Made by a program: the position numbers and the translations under genes. Of a stretch of 33,328 bases of DNA, positions 24,919-33,282 are shown in pieces. Position 1 is the stretch's first letter; each line of letters starts with the position of its first letter. The notes under the pieces were generated by a model, which saw only the letters and a list, made by a program, of their open reading frames with translations, was not told where the DNA came from and did no database searches. Location: contig CAMZGI010000005.1 of assembly GCA_947306305.1 (NCBI GenBank), forward strand, positions 1-33,328, in the 5' to 3' direction. The stretch is from an uncultured Fibrobacter sp. (GTDB taxonomy: Bacteria > Fibrobacterota > Fibrobacteria > Fibrobacterales > Fibrobacteraceae).

Positions 24919-25051
24919 GGAGGAATTTTGAAGAAGTTGTTCGCTTTTTGCAGAATTTAGGCTGTTGTAATTGCTTATCGCATCAATAAGTAGAATAAAT
25001 TCACTATTATTGCGTAATAATTAAACCATTTTGAATAAGAGCCTAAAAGAT

Positions 25052-26560
25052 ATGATAGATGTTAATCAAGAATATACTCGCGAAGTTGATTGTGAATATA
25101 AAGGTGAAAAATATAAAGTTCGAGATAATGGGGCTATCTTTCGTATGGCGAGAGAAGGTATGCCTAAACGTCCTAAAGATGAAGTATGGACTTTTGGTGA
25201 ATCGATAAATCGTGGCTATGCTTGCTTTTGTGGTGAGGCCGTGCATCGGATTGTTGCTGTTGCTTTTTGGGGAAATCCGCCTACTAAACAGCATGTGGTG
25301 GATCACATTGATACAAATCGTCAGAATAATCGTCCTGAAAATTTAAGGTGGTTAACCAAGCTTGAAAACATTCTACTAAATCCGATTACGAGGGCAAAAA
25401 TTGAATATTTGTGTGGTAGCGTAGAAGAATTTTTGGAAAATCCATCACAACTCAGTGGACATGAAAATGATGATGCCAATTTTGCTTGGATGAGAGCTGT
25501 TTCCCCAGATGAAGCACGAAATACTTTGATTAGTTGGGAAATAATGTTAAATAAGCCAAGACCGGAAATTAGAAGTAGGGGTAATCCCATTGAAGAATGG
25601 ATATTTGGACAGAATAGGGCTAATCAAAGAGAATTGAATTTTATTGATGATGTTGAATCTGTAGAAAATGATGATAATCAAAAAATAACGTTAGAAGAAG
25701 ATGGTGACATTCATCCAATATTATCCTCAAAAGTTAATGAAAGGTTAAAGGAACGTCCTATTTCCAAAACAGAGTTTATGGCTGCAGTTTTGCAAATTTG
25801 TGAAAATAAAGGCTGGAAGTACAAGAAATACTATAAAGCTAATGGTTGGAAAGCGGATATCCTTATTTCAACAGAAAACAGAAGTGTAGCAATTTCTGCC
25901 TTTAATTCGTCTGCGTCTGCTACGAAGTCTTTGCCTCAAATAAGTGTAGAAGGATTGACGTGGTATGGATTGATTCTTTCGACGAAAAAAGATGATATTT
26001 TGGGTTTATCTTGCTTTAGATTGCATCGAAATGAGAATGCAATGGAAGTCGTTGTAGCAGAAAATAATGTGTCGTTGGAATCGTTCTTAAAGAAAGCTTT
26101 GGAGAACAAGATTGAACATTTGACTAAGGCTAAAATAACGGCGGTAGATGTGCTGTTCGAACAAGTAGAGTGTTACTTTTGCCATGAACCACATTTTATT
26201 CATTATGTACGCTATTTGATAGATGAAAAAGGAAAGAAACGAGATCTTGCCTATGTTGATGATTATGATTTGCCCGATCTTCGATTTGGAGAAGAGATAT
26301 TGGAAGTTATTAAATATTATATAGATAGTCATCCAGAGAAGGGAATTGTAATGGGTGAAGTGAAAAAACGTTATAGCAGGACGATGGAACAAAGCTATAT
26401 GTCTTTTGGATGTCCTAAATGTGATGGGATTTTAGGTGATTTTTATCTAAATGATTTAGAGGCTTGTTTGATATATGAAACTGACGAAAAAAAGATGAAT
26501 CGAATTCAATTGAAAACACCCTTTGAAGTAAAAGTGAATGAATGGATTGTGAAGGATTAG
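25052..26560 (+). CDS. HNH-endonuclease-like protein with C-terminal zinc-binding region
   Basis: 502 residues from ATG 25052. An in-frame TTG at 25031 is possible. Residues about 15-40 (YKVRDNGAIFRM) look like a NUMOD4-type segment. The HNH core follows: VHRIVAVAFWGNPP, VVDHIDTNRQNNRPENLRW, KLENIL (about 68-110). A middle part (about 235-300) contains KYYKANGWKADILISTENRSVAISAF, a helix-strand pattern like PD-(D/E)XK or CoiA-type nucleases but without a clear second acidic residue. The C-terminus has two zinc pairs, CYFCH and CPKC, with YSRTMEQSYMSF and GDFYL, a zinc domain I have seen on varied bacterial proteins. A/T-rich, with codons unlike the glk region. The neighbours suggest a defence or mobile gene. 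Its role is not established. Confidence 0.7.
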   Translation: MIDVNQEYTREVDCEYKGEKYKVRDNGAIFRMAREGMPKRPKDEVWTFGESINRGYACFCGEAVHRIVAVAFWGNPPTKQHVVDHIDTNRQNNRPENLRWLTKLENILLNPITRAKIEYLCGSVEEFLENPSQLSGHENDDANFAWMRAVSPDEARNTLISWEIMLNKPRPEIRSRGNPIEEWIFGQNRANQRELNFIDDVESVENDDNQKITLEEDGDIHPILSSKVNERLKERPISKTEFMAAVLQICENKGWKYKKYYKANGWKADILISTENRSVAISAFNSSASATKSLPQISVEGLTWYGLILSTKKDDILGLSCFRLHRNENAMEVVVAENNVSLESFLKKALENKIEHLTKAKITAVDVLFEQVECYFCHEPHFIHYVRYLIDEKGKKRDLAYVDDYDLPDLRFGEEILEVIKYYIDSHPEKGIVMGEVKKRYSRTMEQSYMSFGCPKCDGILGDFYLNDLEACLIYETDEKKMNRIQLKTPFEVKVNEWIVKD

Positions 26561-26695
26561 ATTTTGCATAGTTTATTAAAGATTCTTTGAAAAAGGAAGA
26601 TGTTTGTTGCGGGTGGTATATTAATGTAAAAATGAAATTATATATTTGTGTAAATGAAGAAAATGAATAACCTTAACTACAAGTGTTGATTTAAT

Positions 26696-26724
26696 TTGAC
26701 AATATATGTGAGTTTCACTACCAT
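26696..26724 (+). promoter_or_regulatory. Possible promoter of the STAND NTPase gene
   Basis: A consensus TTGACA (26696-26701), 17 bases, then TACCAT (26719-26724, four of six consensus bases). It lies 71 bases before the ATG at 26796. The rest of 26561-26795 is A/T-rich with no gene that I can support. Confidence 0.4.
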
Positions 26725-26795
26725 GCGCGACCACCTTCTTCCGTTTCATGCGAACGGACAAGTAACCGTAGGATAAAAGGAAAATGGTATAAAAT

Positions 26796-29700
26796 ATGTC
26801 TATCTTTACATCCATATTGAATGCAGTTGTAAAAATGATATCTCCAATATTGAAGATTCGAAATATTTTTTCTTTTAAAGAATTAAAAAGAAAACTTGAT
26901 GATAGCATTTTTAAGTTAGGACCTCGTTATACGCCCGAATTGCATGTGAATTTGCCAATTGAAGATAATTTTATAATGCTTGCAAAAGATGGTAATGAAT
27001 TTCTTGAAAAAATGTATCCATATTTCAATCTACTCAGCGAAGCGAGTTCTAAAATAAAGAATATTGGCGATGACCAATATGATGGTCATATCAGTGATTT
27101 TCTGCTTTGTGTCGAACGTGTAAAGGGTTTTTATTTCTATTGCGAAAAAAATAAAAGAAATAAAGTATTACTTGATTCGGTAATAAAAGAAATCGTAAAT
27201 GCTAAATCACTCCTAGCAAATATTTACAATTGCGGCGTAACTTTAAAAAAGCAAAATACCCCCAAGGAAATTGTGGATCAAATACGTTATAATGAAAGGA
27301 GTATTTCGGAGATTGGTGATCGATTGCAAGAATTATATAAATTCTTCAAAGAAGGACCAGGACGTTTTTTGAGTGCTCAAGTACTGCTACTTACAGGAAA
27401 AGCTGGTTCTGGAAAATCTCATTTGCTTGCTGATGTTGCAAGAAAAAGACTACAATCGAGAAAATGGACGTGTCTTCTTTTAGGAAATACCTTTGCAAGT
27501 GGCGATTTATGGAAACAGTTTTTAGAAAAATTATCTATAAAATAGAGTAAAGGAGTATTTCTTTTTCTGCTTGATAAGTACGGTTGGTTTCGGGGATCCC
27601 GTTCTTTAATTTTTATAGATGCACTTAATGAGTGTGATGTTCCTAATTTTTGGGAGCAAAATCTAGAATCCTTTTTTTACGATATTCAACAATATCGTAA
27701 TGTTGGAGTTGTTTTAAGTATTCGCTCTGAGTATATAGATTACGTCTTGACCAAACAAATAAAATCTAAAGTTAATATTGTTGACCATGAAGGTTTTAAA
27801 GGAGCTGAGTTTGAAGCCGTTAGGCGTTATTTTAAATGTTATGAGATTAATCTGCCGAATACACCTTTGCTTAATCCCGAATTTTCAAACCCTTTGTTCT
27901 TGAAACTTTTCTGTGAAATGTTAAGAAACAAAGGATTGAGAGAGATGCCTAGTGGCTTTGACAATTTTCTTGAAATTTTTAAGAATTATATTGATGACCT
28001 TAATGAACGAATTTCAAAAAAACATGCAACATTGCCTTCGCTAAACTTAATAAGAAAATCAATTGAGAATCTTGCTTTGGAAATGCAAAGACGAGACGAG
28101 GAGCTGTTGCCTAGCGATGATACACTAAGCATATTAAATACGGTTCTTTCTGGTTCAGGAATAAATGCGACGGATCTTTATAAAGATTTGGTGTCTGAGG
28201 GAATATTGGTTGAGTTTTTTGATAAAGAAAAGAATGCGAAAATTTATTTTGCATACGAAAAATATTATGATTTAATTGTTGCAAAAGCATTAGTAGAAGC
28301 GGAAAAAAATGATGATGACATAAAGCTAATGTTTGAAAAAAATGGTTCGTTATATAAGTATGTCGTGTCTGAATATGGATTTAGTAGATATCAAGGACTT
28401 TTGAATGCATGGGCCGTTTTTTTGCCAGATGTATATGATATAGAATTGTTTGATGTTGTTCCTGACAATACATTGTCATCAATAAAAGAGGCATTTTTAG
28501 ATGGCTTACTATGGCGAAAAAAAATAAATATTGATTCAATAAAGAATTATACGAATAAAGAAATTTTGGCAGATGATTATTATAAATTTAAATGGTTTGA
28601 TGTCTGCTTACTTTTGTGCGCTAAATCAGAATGTTCCTTGAATAGTGATTTTCTTCATGAAAAATTATTCCCATTAAGCATGGGTATTCGAGATGCTGAA
28701 TGGTCTATTTTTATAAGTACACAAAATGACTCTGATAGAAATAATGTTAAACGAATAATTGATTGGGCTTGGTATAACGATGATTTTGAATTATTGTCTG
28801 ACGAATCAACTCGTTTACTTGGACAAATGTTGATTTGGTTTTTAACATCAATGAATAGAGAAGTTAGAGACAAAGCATCAACAGCTCTTGTAAATTTGCT
28901 AAAAAATAAAATAGATGTTTTGATTTGCTTATTAGATAAGTTTAAAGATGTGAATGATCCGTATGTTTTACAGAGAATGTATGCGGTTGCTTTTGGCTGT
29001 GTAACAAATAGTTTTAATAGGGAAAGTATAAAAAACTTGTGCGAATGTGTATAAAAATATTTTTGAATCTGTAAATGTTGTTCCTGATATTTTACTACGC
29101 GATTATGCTATGAATACAATTGAATATGGAAGACATTTAGGGTTAAAATTTGATTTCGACATAAAGAAAATTTATCCGCCATATGGCAGTGCCATGCCTG
29201 CGAATTTACCTCCAAATAATGTTGTTGATGCTAACTTGATTCCTTATGGAGAAAAGGACATTGCTTCTCCAGAATATGCAATAAATATGATTCTGCATTC
29301 CATGACAACAGAATATGGTCGTGGAACATCGCATTATGGCGATTTTGGACGATATGTTTGGGATAGTGCTTTTAATGATTGGGGTGTTGATACTAATTTA
29401 TTGAGTAATTACGCTGTAATGTGGATTCTAAAAGAAAGTGGGTATGACTATAGTATTCACGGTGAATTTGATATGAGTGTATCTCATGGAGAACGATTCG
29501 GAAATGTTTGTGAACGGATAGGAAAAAAGTATCAGTGGATTGCTTTCTATGATTTACTTGCTAGAGTATCCGATAATTGCCAAATGAAGGAAGGTGTTTA
29601 TAAAGGTAGTTTCGAACCATTTGTAAGAGATTTTGACCCAACAACTATAAAAAAATCCGTTTATAACGCTGATGAATCTTTTTATTTTGGTGTAATGAAA

Positions 29701-30507
29701 AAATTTCATTGGAATCAAAATAATAGAAAATGGATTGTAAAAAAGAATAACTATCCTTCTGTAGGAAAATTTCTTTTTGAAAAAGATGTCGATGACGTAG
29801 AATGGATTATTTTGAATAAGTCAATACATTTAAAACAACCAGATCGATTGGATGGAATGTTCGAGCCAAAGAAGGATTTCTTTTGTGATGTAAACAGTTA
29901 TATTATGACAGATAACGATTATAATTCCTTTAAAAGTTGGTCAAAAAAGCAGAATTTTTATGGGATGCGAATGCCAGATTTCCATCAATGTTACAATGTG
30001 TATTCTAGAGAATATTGTTGGTCTAAAGCTTACGAGTCAGAATATGGCGATGACTATGATTGGAAAACAATCCGCGATAAAGCGGAAAGAGATATCTCTG
30101 TTGTTGCTCTAACCTCATACAACTACTATTGGGAAAATGAATATGATCACTCAAAAAAGAGCGTTTTCTCGTTTATAAGGCCTTCCAAAGAGTTGTGTAG
30201 AATAATGAAAATGCATCAGGGAATCAAAGATGGTGAGTTTGTTGACAGTTTTGGCCTTGTTGTCTGCAAAAATCCGTCTATAAATGAAAAGCACCCTTCA
30301 TGTTTGATGGTTAGAAAAAAAGATTTTTTGAATGCTTTGAAAAATAATGGACTTAGGATTGTATGGACACTTCTTGGAGAAAAAAGAATAGATTCTTTAA
30401 ATGATAAAGATCGTAATGCATGGATGACCTTCTCTGGAACAGGGTATATGAGGCTAGGTAAGCCTTGTATTAAAATGAATTATTTTGTGAATTATGTAAA
30501 AAAATAA
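26796..30507 (+). pseudogene. Avs-like STAND NTPase, interrupted by one amber codon and one frameshift
   Basis: Three pieces read as one protein of about 1,230 residues. Piece one (26796-27545) has a helical N-terminus and Walker A GKAGSGKS (201-208). It ends at TAG 27543-27545. Reading on in the same frame gives Walker B LIFIDALNECD (about 27606-27638), the sensor-like VVLSIRSEY and NPEFSNPLFLKLFCEML, as far as TAA 29052-29054. A shift then continues as YKNIFESVNVVPDILLRDYAMNTIEYG (from 29050) to 30507. These phrases (DALNE, SNPLFLKLFCE, LLRDYA) are typical of large antiviral STAND/AVAST-type ATPases. I see no nuclease or protease effector at the N-terminus. The gene is A/T-rich and probably horizontally acquired. 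It could be a decayed gene, a recoded gene or a sequencing error. Confidence 0.72.
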
Positions 30508-30933: not shown

Positions 30934-31971
30934 TCACCCTTCCTCCCTTTCATCCTTCAGTCTATACCGTTTGCTTCTGCCGCCTTTGTTGTTCGTCTGC
31001 AAAATTCCTTTGTCCATAAGACTTTGGATTTCGCGGAGGGCGGTGTCGTGGCTGGTGTTGAAGAATGCGGCGGCTTCTTTGGCGGTGAAGGGTTGGGCGA
31101 TTCTTCCGGCTAAAATTTCGTCGATGAGCTGTTGTTCGCGTTCGCTGAAGGTGGTGCTTGCGTGGGCGTTGCGGAACTGGATGCGGCTGATTTCGGAGGC
31201 GAAAAGTTGTTCGCTATCTTTGATGGCGTCTCGCATCATTTGCAGGAACCATAAAATCCATTCGGTGAGGTCACCGCTTGCGGCTTGTGTGCGCGAGAGG
31301 ATTTTGAAGTAGTCGGCTTTGTTGTCGCTGATTTGCTTGTTCAGTGCGTATTGGCAATGCGTTGTGCTTTCGGCGCGGGCGAGTTGCATCGCGGTGATGG
31401 CGCGGGCGATTCTGCCGTTGGCGTCGGCGAAGGGGCGGATGGTCAAAAACCAAAAGTGTGCGATGGCGGCTTTGATGACTCCGTCCATGTTCGATTTTTC
31501 GAACCACGAGATAAAACTTTCCATTTCGCTTTGGAGGCGTTCTGGATTCGGGCCTACAAAGTGGAGCGTTTTTTCGTCTAATGTTGTCTGTACTTCGCTG
31601 GGAGTTTCGCGGTAGTGCTTGACTTTGTTCTGACCCATGGCGGCGTGCCAGTTGAAGAGTCTTTCTTCGGTCAGGGGCGAAGCGGCGTTCTGTATGGCGC
31701 CGATGTAGTTCTTGATGTAATTTTCGTTGCTCTTGCTTTTGAGTTCCACTTCGGTGAGGACTTTCGCCGCGTCGAGCGTGTAGCCATCGATGGCGTAGTT
31801 TGCAACGATGTCATCGGCGATGAGTTTTGCTTCGATGTCCTTGAGTCCGCAGATTTGCATGATCCCGATGAGTTTTCCTTCGGCGAGTCGCGTTTGCCCA
31901 AGTGCGTTGAGCACCTTGGGGGAGTCGAAGCGGAATCGTGTCCAGTCGGGGAATTGGTGGATGTAGAGCAT
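30934..31971 (-). CDS. Fic-family protein with altered active-site and inhibitory motifs
   Basis: 345 residues. Order: a DUF4172-type N-terminus (HQFPDWTRFRFDSPKVLNAL), an inhibitory-helix region, the Fic core, then a C-terminal winged helix (about 280-340: FTAKEAAAFFNTSHDTALREIQSLMDKGIL). Fic enzymes transfer AMP or related groups using HPFx(D/E)GNGR. Here the motif reads IRPFADANGR, with the catalytic histidine replaced by Arg179 (codon CGC, 31435-31437) and the first glycine by Ala. The inhibitory motif (S/T)xxxE(G/N) reads NYAIDG (58-63), also changed. The fold is otherwise complete and the frame intact over 1 kb, so it may be kept for a non-catalytic role such as DNA binding. No strong ribosome site precedes ATG 31971. 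It faces prmA divergently across 468 bases. Confidence 0.88.
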   Translation of the reverse strand: MLYIHQFPDWTRFRFDSPKVLNALGQTRLAEGKLIGIMQICGLKDIEAKLIADDIVANYAIDGYTLDAAKVLTEVELKSKSNENYIKNYIGAIQNAASPLTEERLFNWHAAMGQNKVKHYRETPSEVQTTLDEKTLHFVGPNPERLQSEMESFISWFEKSNMDGVIKAAIAHFWFLTIRPFADANGRIARAITAMQLARAESTTHCQYALNKQISDNKADYFKILSRTQAASGDLTEWILWFLQMMRDAIKDSEQLFASEISRIQFRNAHASTTFSEREQQLIDEILAGRIAQPFTAKEAAAFFNTSHDTALREIQSLMDKGILQTNNKGGRSKRYRLKDEREEG

Positions 31972-32089: not shown

Positions 32090-32127
32090 TACATACTAAA
32101 AAAGGTCATTATGTGTTTTAATATGTA
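32090..32127. repeat. TACATACTAAA palindrome, copy 1
   Basis: TACATACTAAAA (32090-32101), 14-base loop with GTCATTATGTG, TTTTAATATGTA (32116-32127), one mismatch. First of three related palindromes in the fic-prmA divergent spacer. Confidence 0.75.
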
Positions 32128-32152
32128 ATTGGCCGTTTGTTACTTTGTGTGG

Positions 32153-32192
32153 TTACATACTAAATTGTCGATTTATGGTGTTTAGTATGTAA
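32153..32192. repeat. TACATACTAAA palindrome, copy 2
   Basis: TTACATACTAAA (32153-32164), 16-base loop TTGTCGATTTATGGTG, TTTAGTATGTAA (32181-32192): perfect 12-base arms. It starts 63 bases after copy 1. Confidence 0.8.
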
Positions 32193-32289
32193 TTTTTAGT
32201 GCAAATAGCTACTTTAGAGGGCCTTTTTGTTGAAAGATTGCTTTAAAAAGCTGTATTTTGGCTTTTTTGAGCGGATTTTCATCTTTTTT

Positions 32290-32326
32290 TACATACTAAA
32301 TGACGATTTTCCTGTTTTAGTATGTA
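32290..32326. repeat. TACATACTAAA palindrome, copy 3
   Basis: TACATACTAAA (32290-32300), 15-base loop containing GACGATTTTCCTG, TTTAGTATGTA (32316-32326): perfect 11-base arms. It starts 137 bases after copy 2. Apart from these three palindromes, 31972-32439 shows nothing that I can name. Confidence 0.8.
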
Positions 32327-32439: not shown

Positions 32440-33282
32440 ATGCAGAAAATCGATACTTGGTACAAGGCTCAGGGCAACTGCCCCAATGAAGAATATGAAA
32501 TTGCAAGCTACCTGCTTTTCGAAGCGGGCGTGGCTACGTTGGAAGAACTGGATCCGGTGACGGAAGGTCGCACGGAGTTCTGTTTTTACACGGGCGACAA
32601 GGCTGAACGCGACCGCATCGTGGAGGAATTTCCTCAGTACAACTTCACGGTGACGGAAGAGCCTGCAAAGGATTGGGACAAGTGGTGGCGCGACCGTGCG
32701 CAGCCGGTGGCTGTGAGCGAGCATCTTTGGGTGCGTCCGCCTTGGGTGGAATTTGCGCCGGAAGATCCGGAAGCGGTTGTGCTTGAACTCGAAGCGAAGA
32801 CTGCTTTTGGTACGGGTGAGCACGAGACGACGAGTAGCTGTGCCGCGTTGATGGAAAATATTGATTTTAACGGCAAGACGGTTCTCGACATTGGTACGGG
32901 AACGGGAATCTTGGCGATGTTTGCGCGTCGCAAGGGCGCTAGTTTGGCGGTGGGTACGGAAATCGACCCGCTCACGATTCCTTGCATTGCTGAAAACTTT
33001 GAACGTAATGGTTTTGGCGAAAGCGACTGCGTGCTCGGATTCTTGGATGCGTTCAAGGACGGAACGAAGTTCGACGTGATTCTCTGCAACATGATCCGCA
33101 GCGAACTTTGGCCGTTGCGCGATGATATCGAGGACTTGCTTGCGGAAGGCGGCGAACTGATTATTAGCGGTCAGCTCGTCACTGAAAAGGATTACATCCT
33201 CAAGTGGTTCGAAGAAGCCGGCTTCAAGGTCTCTGTTGAACGCGAAAAAGGCGAGTGGTGGAGTGTGCTTGCGCACTCCTAA
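32440..33282 (+). CDS. prmA: Ribosomal protein L11 methyltransferase
   Basis: A 280-residue S-adenosylmethionine-dependent methyltransferase that trimethylates ribosomal protein L11. The N-terminal substrate-binding part (about 1-100; WDKWWRDRAQPVAVSEHLWVRPPW, canonical W...F.P...) leads to the catalytic domain: TAFGTGEHETTSSC (about 122-135), the SAM loop TVLDIGTGTGILAMFARRKGA (about 147-167), the acidic TEID after the next strand and FDVILCNMI (canonical ANIL). The family usually reads LDVGCGSG, and here IGTGTG is a mild variant. Size is close to the normal 290. No clear ribosome site precedes ATG 32440. It is first after the accessory region and probably marks the resumed core chromosome. 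Confidence 0.92.
   Translation: MQKIDTWYKAQGNCPNEEYEIASYLLFEAGVATLEELDPVTEGRTEFCFYTGDKAERDRIVEEFPQYNFTVTEEPAKDWDKWWRDRAQPVAVSEHLWVRPPWVEFAPEDPEAVVLELEAKTAFGTGEHETTSSCAALMENIDFNGKTVLDIGTGTGILAMFARRKGASLAVGTEIDPLTIPCIAENFERNGFGESDCVLGFLDAFKDGTKFDVILCNMIRSELWPLRDDIEDLLAEGGELIISGQLVTEKDYILKWFEEAGFKVSVEREKGEWWSVLAHS

Follow-up and report, generated by a model that had tools for sequence, protein, structure and literature searches.

The fic-prmA Array and Its Neighbors

The window, by which we mean the whole stretch of 33,328 nucleotides analyzed here, carries a fic and a prmA gene on opposite strands, and the spacer between them holds an array of three palindromic units (Table 1). Almost the whole of the Fic protein is covered by its match to PADLOC SoFic (E 4e-43), and the protein contains the Pfam Fic and DUF4172 domains. 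Elsewhere in the window (25031-30507), ORFs with a P-loop motif (GKAGSGKSH) come after an HNH-like ORF; judged by eye, this is possibly a defense-type block.

Table 1. Coordinates of the array, its units and its flanking genes in the window, and contigs of genome G000 that carry TACATACTAAA clusters
Feature	Location	Strand	Description
Palindrome array, three units	32090..32326	.	start-to-start 64 and 136 bp (~6 and ~13 helical turns)
Unit 1, TACATACTAAA-N16-TTTAATATGTA	32090..32127	.	38 bp; arms 32090-32100 and 32117-32127, one mismatch
Unit 2, TACATACTAAA-N16-TTTAGTATGTA	32154..32191	.	38 bp; arms 32154-32164 and 32181-32191, perfect
Unit 3, TACATACTAAA-N15-TTTAGTATGTA	32290..32326	.	37 bp; arms 32290-32300 and 32316-32326, perfect
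fic (Fic domain and DUF4172; PADLOC SoFic-like)	30934..31971	-	neighbor, outside the element
prmA (ribosomal protein L11 methyltransferase)	32440..33282	+	neighbor, outside the element
TACATACTAAA clusters in G000	contigs C2, C5 (the window), C25, C79, C140, C247, C284		

A preliminary description of this DNA had reported three palindromes in the spacer, and our analysis confirms them, in the form TACATACTAAA-N15/16-TTTAGTATGTA: with at most one mismatch allowed, six arm matches were found in the array against 0.36 expected, and none of 100 shuffles reached six. Two units have perfect arms of 11 bp and the third has a single mismatch, located in its right arm, TTTAATATGTA. The loops, previously given as 14-16 bases, are 16, 16 and 15 bases long. 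The part of the unit that is common across the genus is a 7-bp core, TACATAC...GTATGTA.

These palindromes are far above chance, yet they are no fic-specific feature. A spacer of 467-571 bp with an array separates fic and prmA in G000, the genome of the window, and in G077 and G114. Six relatives with PrmA proteins of 95-98% identity (G117, G131, G106, G067, G060 and G102) keep the same gene pair with an array-free spacer of only 84-96 bp. Thus, the array is polymorphic and dispensable to fic. No short direct repeat around it rose above the shuffled level, and a candidate target duplication, GTTGAATT, tentatively picked out by eye, was dropped as unsupported.

Dispersed Arrays in the Genome and the Genus

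All 33 exact copies of TACATACTAAA in the G000 genome sit in seven clusters, and a reversed control of the full unit had no match genome-wide. Typically, a 37-bp unit is separated by 135-137 or 147 bp from a 38-bp unit, which in turn lies 63 or 64 bp from another 38-bp unit. The C79 cluster features a fourth unit (spacing 63-137-63), and those on C140 and C284 are more degenerate than the remainder. Such a genome search had been proposed in the preliminary description as the check on a link to fic, and the copies proved to be scattered without one. The genes flanking the arrays (named by eye) are mutually unrelated, including those for an AraC regulator and a cupin, a thioesterase and a MATE protein, a TIGR02147-like protein and a pectate lyase, a lipoprotein and a stomatin-like protein. 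The C2 array and its orthologues fill the interval between the stop codons of two convergent genes.

The exact unit was recovered from 11 of the 168 genomes of the phylum, all belonging to one genus, which is Fibrobacter according to the named hits. The 7-bp core is present in 18 of the 80 genomes of the genus, with 2 to 38 units in each, and is absent from the family's other genera. Beyond Fibrobacter, the pattern had four matches, in a Lachnospiraceae member (L023), Slackia (L030), Listeria (L033) and Brachyspira (L045). All four are single palindromes and probably chance matches; the genomes behind L023, L030 and L045 gave no match to the protein X described below. In IMG/VR, the unit pattern occurred in one contig only, with a loop of 12 bases, and no contig was confirmed to encode a relative of X; a phage origin of the arrays was rejected on this basis.

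A Protein Family Encoded Beside the Arrays

By clustering the array-flanking genes, we picked out a protein family, here termed X, whose start is directly preceded by an array at eight loci from several unrelated contexts. In G000, X is a protein of 281 residues encoded on contig C284 (1449-2294, minus strand), again with an array directly upstream; the arrays lie ~50-590 bp upstream of X genes. The family is present in 49 of the 80 Fibrobacter genomes. A second, distant version (34% identical) is encoded in G000 on contig C121 (locus L133, 1967-2797, plus strand), with palindromes of a different arm, TTTTTACGTAA, on both sides. Among phages and plasmids, X was seen on one 4-kb human-gut contig, on which no array was detected, and otherwise as partial, C-terminal matches. 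A search for recurrent cargo genes beside X returned mostly orthologous neighborhoods and no universal partner. Many Fibrobacter X genes (L110, L116, L123, L130 and L141) share a stretch, GTTTGCAAAATGA, between the array and the start, which is possibly part of the X promoter.

Membership of X in a known family was rejected, there being no family match in Pfam (for 30 X proteins), NCBIfam, PHROGs or the PDB sequences. Over its last ~110 residues, X is similar to the C-terminal ends of PADLOC PDC-S68 and of other AAA/helicase proteins. An AlphaFold model (pLDDT 91.7) predicts an N-terminal helix, a β-hairpin and a long helix, followed by a C-terminal PD-(D/E)XK-like nuclease domain. The best Foldseek matches, all of them weak (none with E <0.001), include PD-(D/E)XK proteins, first DrdV and Bax1 and then MunI, the ST1444 resolvase and Vsr; these point, weakly, to a PD-(D/E)XK-like nuclease fold in X. 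Conservation is complete at E170 and E216 and reaches 98% at D201. Catalysis by X is uncertain, since the motif's canonical lysine does not occupy its standard position.

Linkage of X to Arrays with Private Arms

At least three similar palindromes were detected at 63 of the 70 Fibrobacter X loci, compared to 2 of the 50 control loci examined with the same detector. Both control matches come from a single region of a G125 contig, close to htpG. Inspection showed a real GTACCTAT array there, and GTACCTAT is the arm type of an X in G125. The region upstream of htpG is occupied by an TACGTACT array in G067 (L175, 2911-3192) and by the GTACCTAT array in G125 (L201, 954-1213); it is either a hotspot or a place where one specificity was replaced by another.

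In genomes that lack TACATAC arrays, the X genes are accompanied by arrays built in the same way from different arms, such as GTACCTATAAA, ATGCATATAAA, GGGGCGTATAA and GGGGCATATAA. Further private arms beside X include TTACGGACTAAA, TTACGTACTA and TTGTAGG, among many others. At several loci, X is flanked by an array on either side, and several different X/array pairs can co-occur in one genome. At a miaB-like locus, an X gene is found at the same position in eight genomes (L135, L137, L154, L160, L162, L163, L164 and L165), and the arms, where arrays were detected, drift from TGCTAC(A/T/C)A to GGTACTAA. This locus is a natural series for co-evolution of protein and site.

Two arms, TACGTACT and GGGCGTAT, were first predicted from X genes and then searched for, the former across all 80 genomes of the genus. 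The TACGTACT arm, predicted from the X proteins of G067, G125, G128 and G130, is represented there by 21, 44, 58 and 20 units, respectively; three other genomes have one unit each and the rest none. The GGGCGTAT units are commonest in the genomes with the cognate X (11, 14, 6 and 5 in G071, G081, G129 and G123), and six other genomes have 1-4 units, which may be relics. The TACATAC-linked X itself is present in 12 of the 18 TACATAC-positive genomes. Of the others, a single array is present in each of G073, G102 and G128, the assemblies of G082 and G114 are 71% and 88% complete, and G123, at 95% completeness, is an unexplained exception. Fisher tests of dispersed arrays against the cognate X, on counts tabulated by hand and uncorrected for shared ancestry, gave p values of 3e-7 for TACATAC, 6e-7 for TACGTACT and 1e-4 for GGGCGTAT.

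X with palindromes beside it was also found in a second phylum. Of 200 genomes sampled from the family Lachnospiraceae, 70 have a match to X, in some cases only in the C-terminal domain of a larger protein, and 18 of the 30 X loci that were fetched have 3-22 private palindromes. The units are mostly spaced by 52-54, 62-64 or 73-75 bp, i.e., about five, six or seven turns. Three loci of this family (L219, L225 and L230) have 12-22 palindromes near X that recur in tandem with an almost constant period of 53 or 75 bp; arrays such as these could be mistaken for CRISPRs by repeat finders.

Proposed Arm Recognition, Spacing and Conservation

Across 77 X proteins with arrays, the distance between arms follows the distance between proteins (Mantel r=0.53 against a null maximum of 0.15 in 1000 permutations, uncorrected for shared ancestry). 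Once overall distance was removed, arm tracking was strongest at H49 (0.38) and N48 (0.28), both in the predicted N-terminal β-hairpin; in the permutations, the best column had a 95% level of 0.23 and a maximum of 0.30. N64 is also significant, and nine of the 20 best arm-tracking columns lie within residues 41-68. Arms of the TACRTAC and TACGGAC types are associated with N-H, C-H or S-H at positions 48-49, and those of the GGGGCGTA and GGGGCATA types with H-K. This correlation suggests that the hairpin reads the arm.

The spacing of the units follows the DNA helix. The center-to-center distances of 170 distinct pairs of neighboring units have a Rayleigh R of 0.91 at 10.5 bp with a phase near zero, and p remains ~1.6e-8 when every distinct distance is counted once. 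The main distances are 62-65, 74, 84-85, 94-96, 134-138, 146-148, 157-159 and 167-168 bp, nearly all of them whole helical multiples. Within a unit, the arms are 30-32 bp apart, as derived from the unit lengths, which is three turns, and the unit center is 94-97% A/T. Between orthologous arrays of different species, the arms are 96% identical compared to 60% for the loops, 66% for the linkers and 61% for the flanks, indicating that the arms are under selection.

Perfect inverted arms with variable loops might also be expected of hairpins in a non-coding RNA family. Nevertheless, an Rfam search with the array gave no match and no pairing covariation was found between the arms: at positions 9 to 13 the left and right sides vary independently, and position 8 has a mild excess of symmetry. 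With the distances following the DNA helical repeat as well, we regard an RNA family as very improbable. Conserved arms, divergent loops and two arms that vary independently are signs of DNA recognition, and the array thus appears to act as double-stranded DNA rather than as an RNA hairpin.

Possible Movement of the Arrays

Several observations bear on how the arrays came to be dispersed. A solo array in G067 is a 414-bp copy, 91% identical, of the array adjoining X. The arrays at L176 and L103 are bracketed by direct repeats of ~65-105 bp, in which the end of a neighboring gene is duplicated. Clear flanking duplications of this kind were seen at 2 of 75 arrays and are the only strong insertion marks, so that mobilization by X is weakly supported. 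Classification as a MITE or classical IS element, with terminal inverted repeats and a short (2-14 bp) target-site duplication, was rejected: the window gave no signal above shuffles, and the repeats seen elsewhere are long and confined to two loci. Dispersal of arrays by X is plausible from these sequences, and most arrays are old and conserved. The alternative offered in the preliminary description, a repeated mobile or recombination site, is partly supported. The arrays are dispersed and differ in presence among close relatives, at least one has been copied, and a nuclease-like protein is linked to them, but the strong conservation of arms in orthologous arrays implies that they are more than mobile debris.

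Possible Functions of X and Its Arrays

Linkage, a private arm for each X, dispersed cognate arrays, phasing, arm conservation and arm-residue covariation are features seen at the level of sequence, whereas the binding of X to arrays, its catalysis, mobilization and autoregulation are what we infer. On this evidence, the arrays are probably binding platforms for their cognate X, with solo arrays dispersed in the manner of REP/RAYT, although both the protein and the DNA architecture are unrelated to those of REP/RAYT. The fic-prmA array would then present six half-sites on one face of the DNA to an X encoded elsewhere, on C284. The β-hairpin of X would read the arm, and X molecules might line up on the phased array, the A/T-rich centers being bent between the arms. 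An array upstream of X may in addition control X itself. Solo arrays would be the non-coding members of the two-part element, copied and inserted between genes, and retained because X still binds them.

A broader proposal, which we hold with only middling confidence, is that X/array pairs form a new and widespread class of two-part elements, each combining a PD-(D/E)XK-type protein with a private 7-8-bp arm and a phased platform of palindromes. The arm would be read through hairpin residues ~46-49. Distinct pairs would evolve side by side in a genome and disperse arrays between genes, possibly with long target duplications, and the arrays would come to gain a host role.

Alternatively, X might be a transcription regulator with a repurposed nuclease fold and the arrays its operators, which would repress or activate the genes beside them by DNA looping and be dispersed by ordinary duplication and recombination. 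We treat such a regulon as a possible, if somewhat doubtful, explanation. The presence of arrays upstream of X and of many other genes is consistent with it, as is the conservation of orthologous arms amid diverging loops and linkers, and helical phasing fits cooperative looping. However, the C2 array and its orthologues lie between convergent genes, the genes beside arrays have no common theme, and the retention of nuclease-type residues, including the invariant E170 and E216, is unexpected for a pure regulator.

An improbable alternative is that X and its arrays organize the chromosome, as scattered binding clusters with a nucleoid-structuring or centromere-like role. The small number of phased clusters per genome (~5-18), their independence of gene orientation and the conserved arms would suit such a role, but the TACATAC arm is patchy (18 of 80 species), several X/array pairs coexist in one genome and close relatives are polymorphic for the arrays. 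Finally, the operator proposed in the preliminary description, bound by the winged-helix part of the Fic protein, is hardly credible: the location in the fic-prmA spacer speaks for it, but the remaining arrays adjoin fic-unrelated genes (e.g., AraC/cupin, MATE, pectate lyase and lipoprotein) and six relatives keep fic-prmA array-free.

If X binding the arrays as platforms is the correct reading, a protein family so far unannotated would at once have a partner, a site to bind and a recognition code open to testing. It would be a second, unrelated invention, after REP/RAYT, of a protein combined with dispersed palindromes. It would also provide a naturally occurring series of DNA-binding specificities, each distinct from the others, which may be set by a short hairpin, and account for a class of intergenic repeats, so far unannotated, in bacteria of the rumen and gut.

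Comparison with Known Systems

The X/array combination is apparently a previously undescribed two-part genetic element, present in at least two bacterial phyla. No description of it was found in the open-licence literature, and an earlier account elsewhere is possible. The closest parallel is furnished by the REP/REPIN sequences and RAYT (TnpA-REP), in which dispersed extragenic palindromes are tied, set by set, to one protein gene (PMC3116915, PMC8266576). Like these, the X arrays are extragenic and palindromic, the same repeats lie beside a protein gene, the protein is of a mobile-element type, and several distinct pairs can occur per genome. Unlike RAYT, X has a predicted PD-(D/E)XK-like fold rather than that of an HUH/Y1 (IS200/IS605-type) transposase, and neither Y1_Tnp nor any other Pfam domain matched 30 X proteins. 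The units of X are further set apart by their grouping into phased arrays, 3-22 at a time and at fixed helical intervals, with ~5-18 arrays per genome, and by paired arms that would be read as duplex DNA. REP repeats have a GTAG or CGTC tag at one end (PMC3733652); the arm consensuses of 77 X loci have no common tag.

The X arrays also resemble certain transposon ends in being spaced, putative protein sites that are sometimes found on both sides of the gene. Tn7- and Mu-type ends are arrays of transposase sites at defined spacing. The sites in X arrays differ in being palindromic and helically phased, and most arrays stand alone. Moreover, X is not a TnsB- or MuA-like DDE protein, and in place of a short target-site duplication there are direct repeats of ~65-105 bp at two arrays.

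With CRISPR and TIGR systems, the X loci share regularly spaced dyad repeats beside a nuclease-like gene, most strikingly in Lachnospiraceae. Here, the arm is private to each X, the intervals are degenerate tandem sequence (in Lachnospiraceae) rather than unrelated spacers, and the spacing is by helical turns. TIGR-Tas systems have a Tas gene with a Nop domain (PMC12045711); X has no Cas, whole-length PADLOC or other family match. At the protein level, PDC-S68 and the AAA/helicase proteins share with X the homologous last ~110 residues that make up its C-terminal PD-(D/E)XK-like domain. Those relatives are helicase/ATPase fusions of ~1,200 residues, whereas X, without helicase or ATPase domains, has instead a proposed DNA-reading N-terminus and its arrays.
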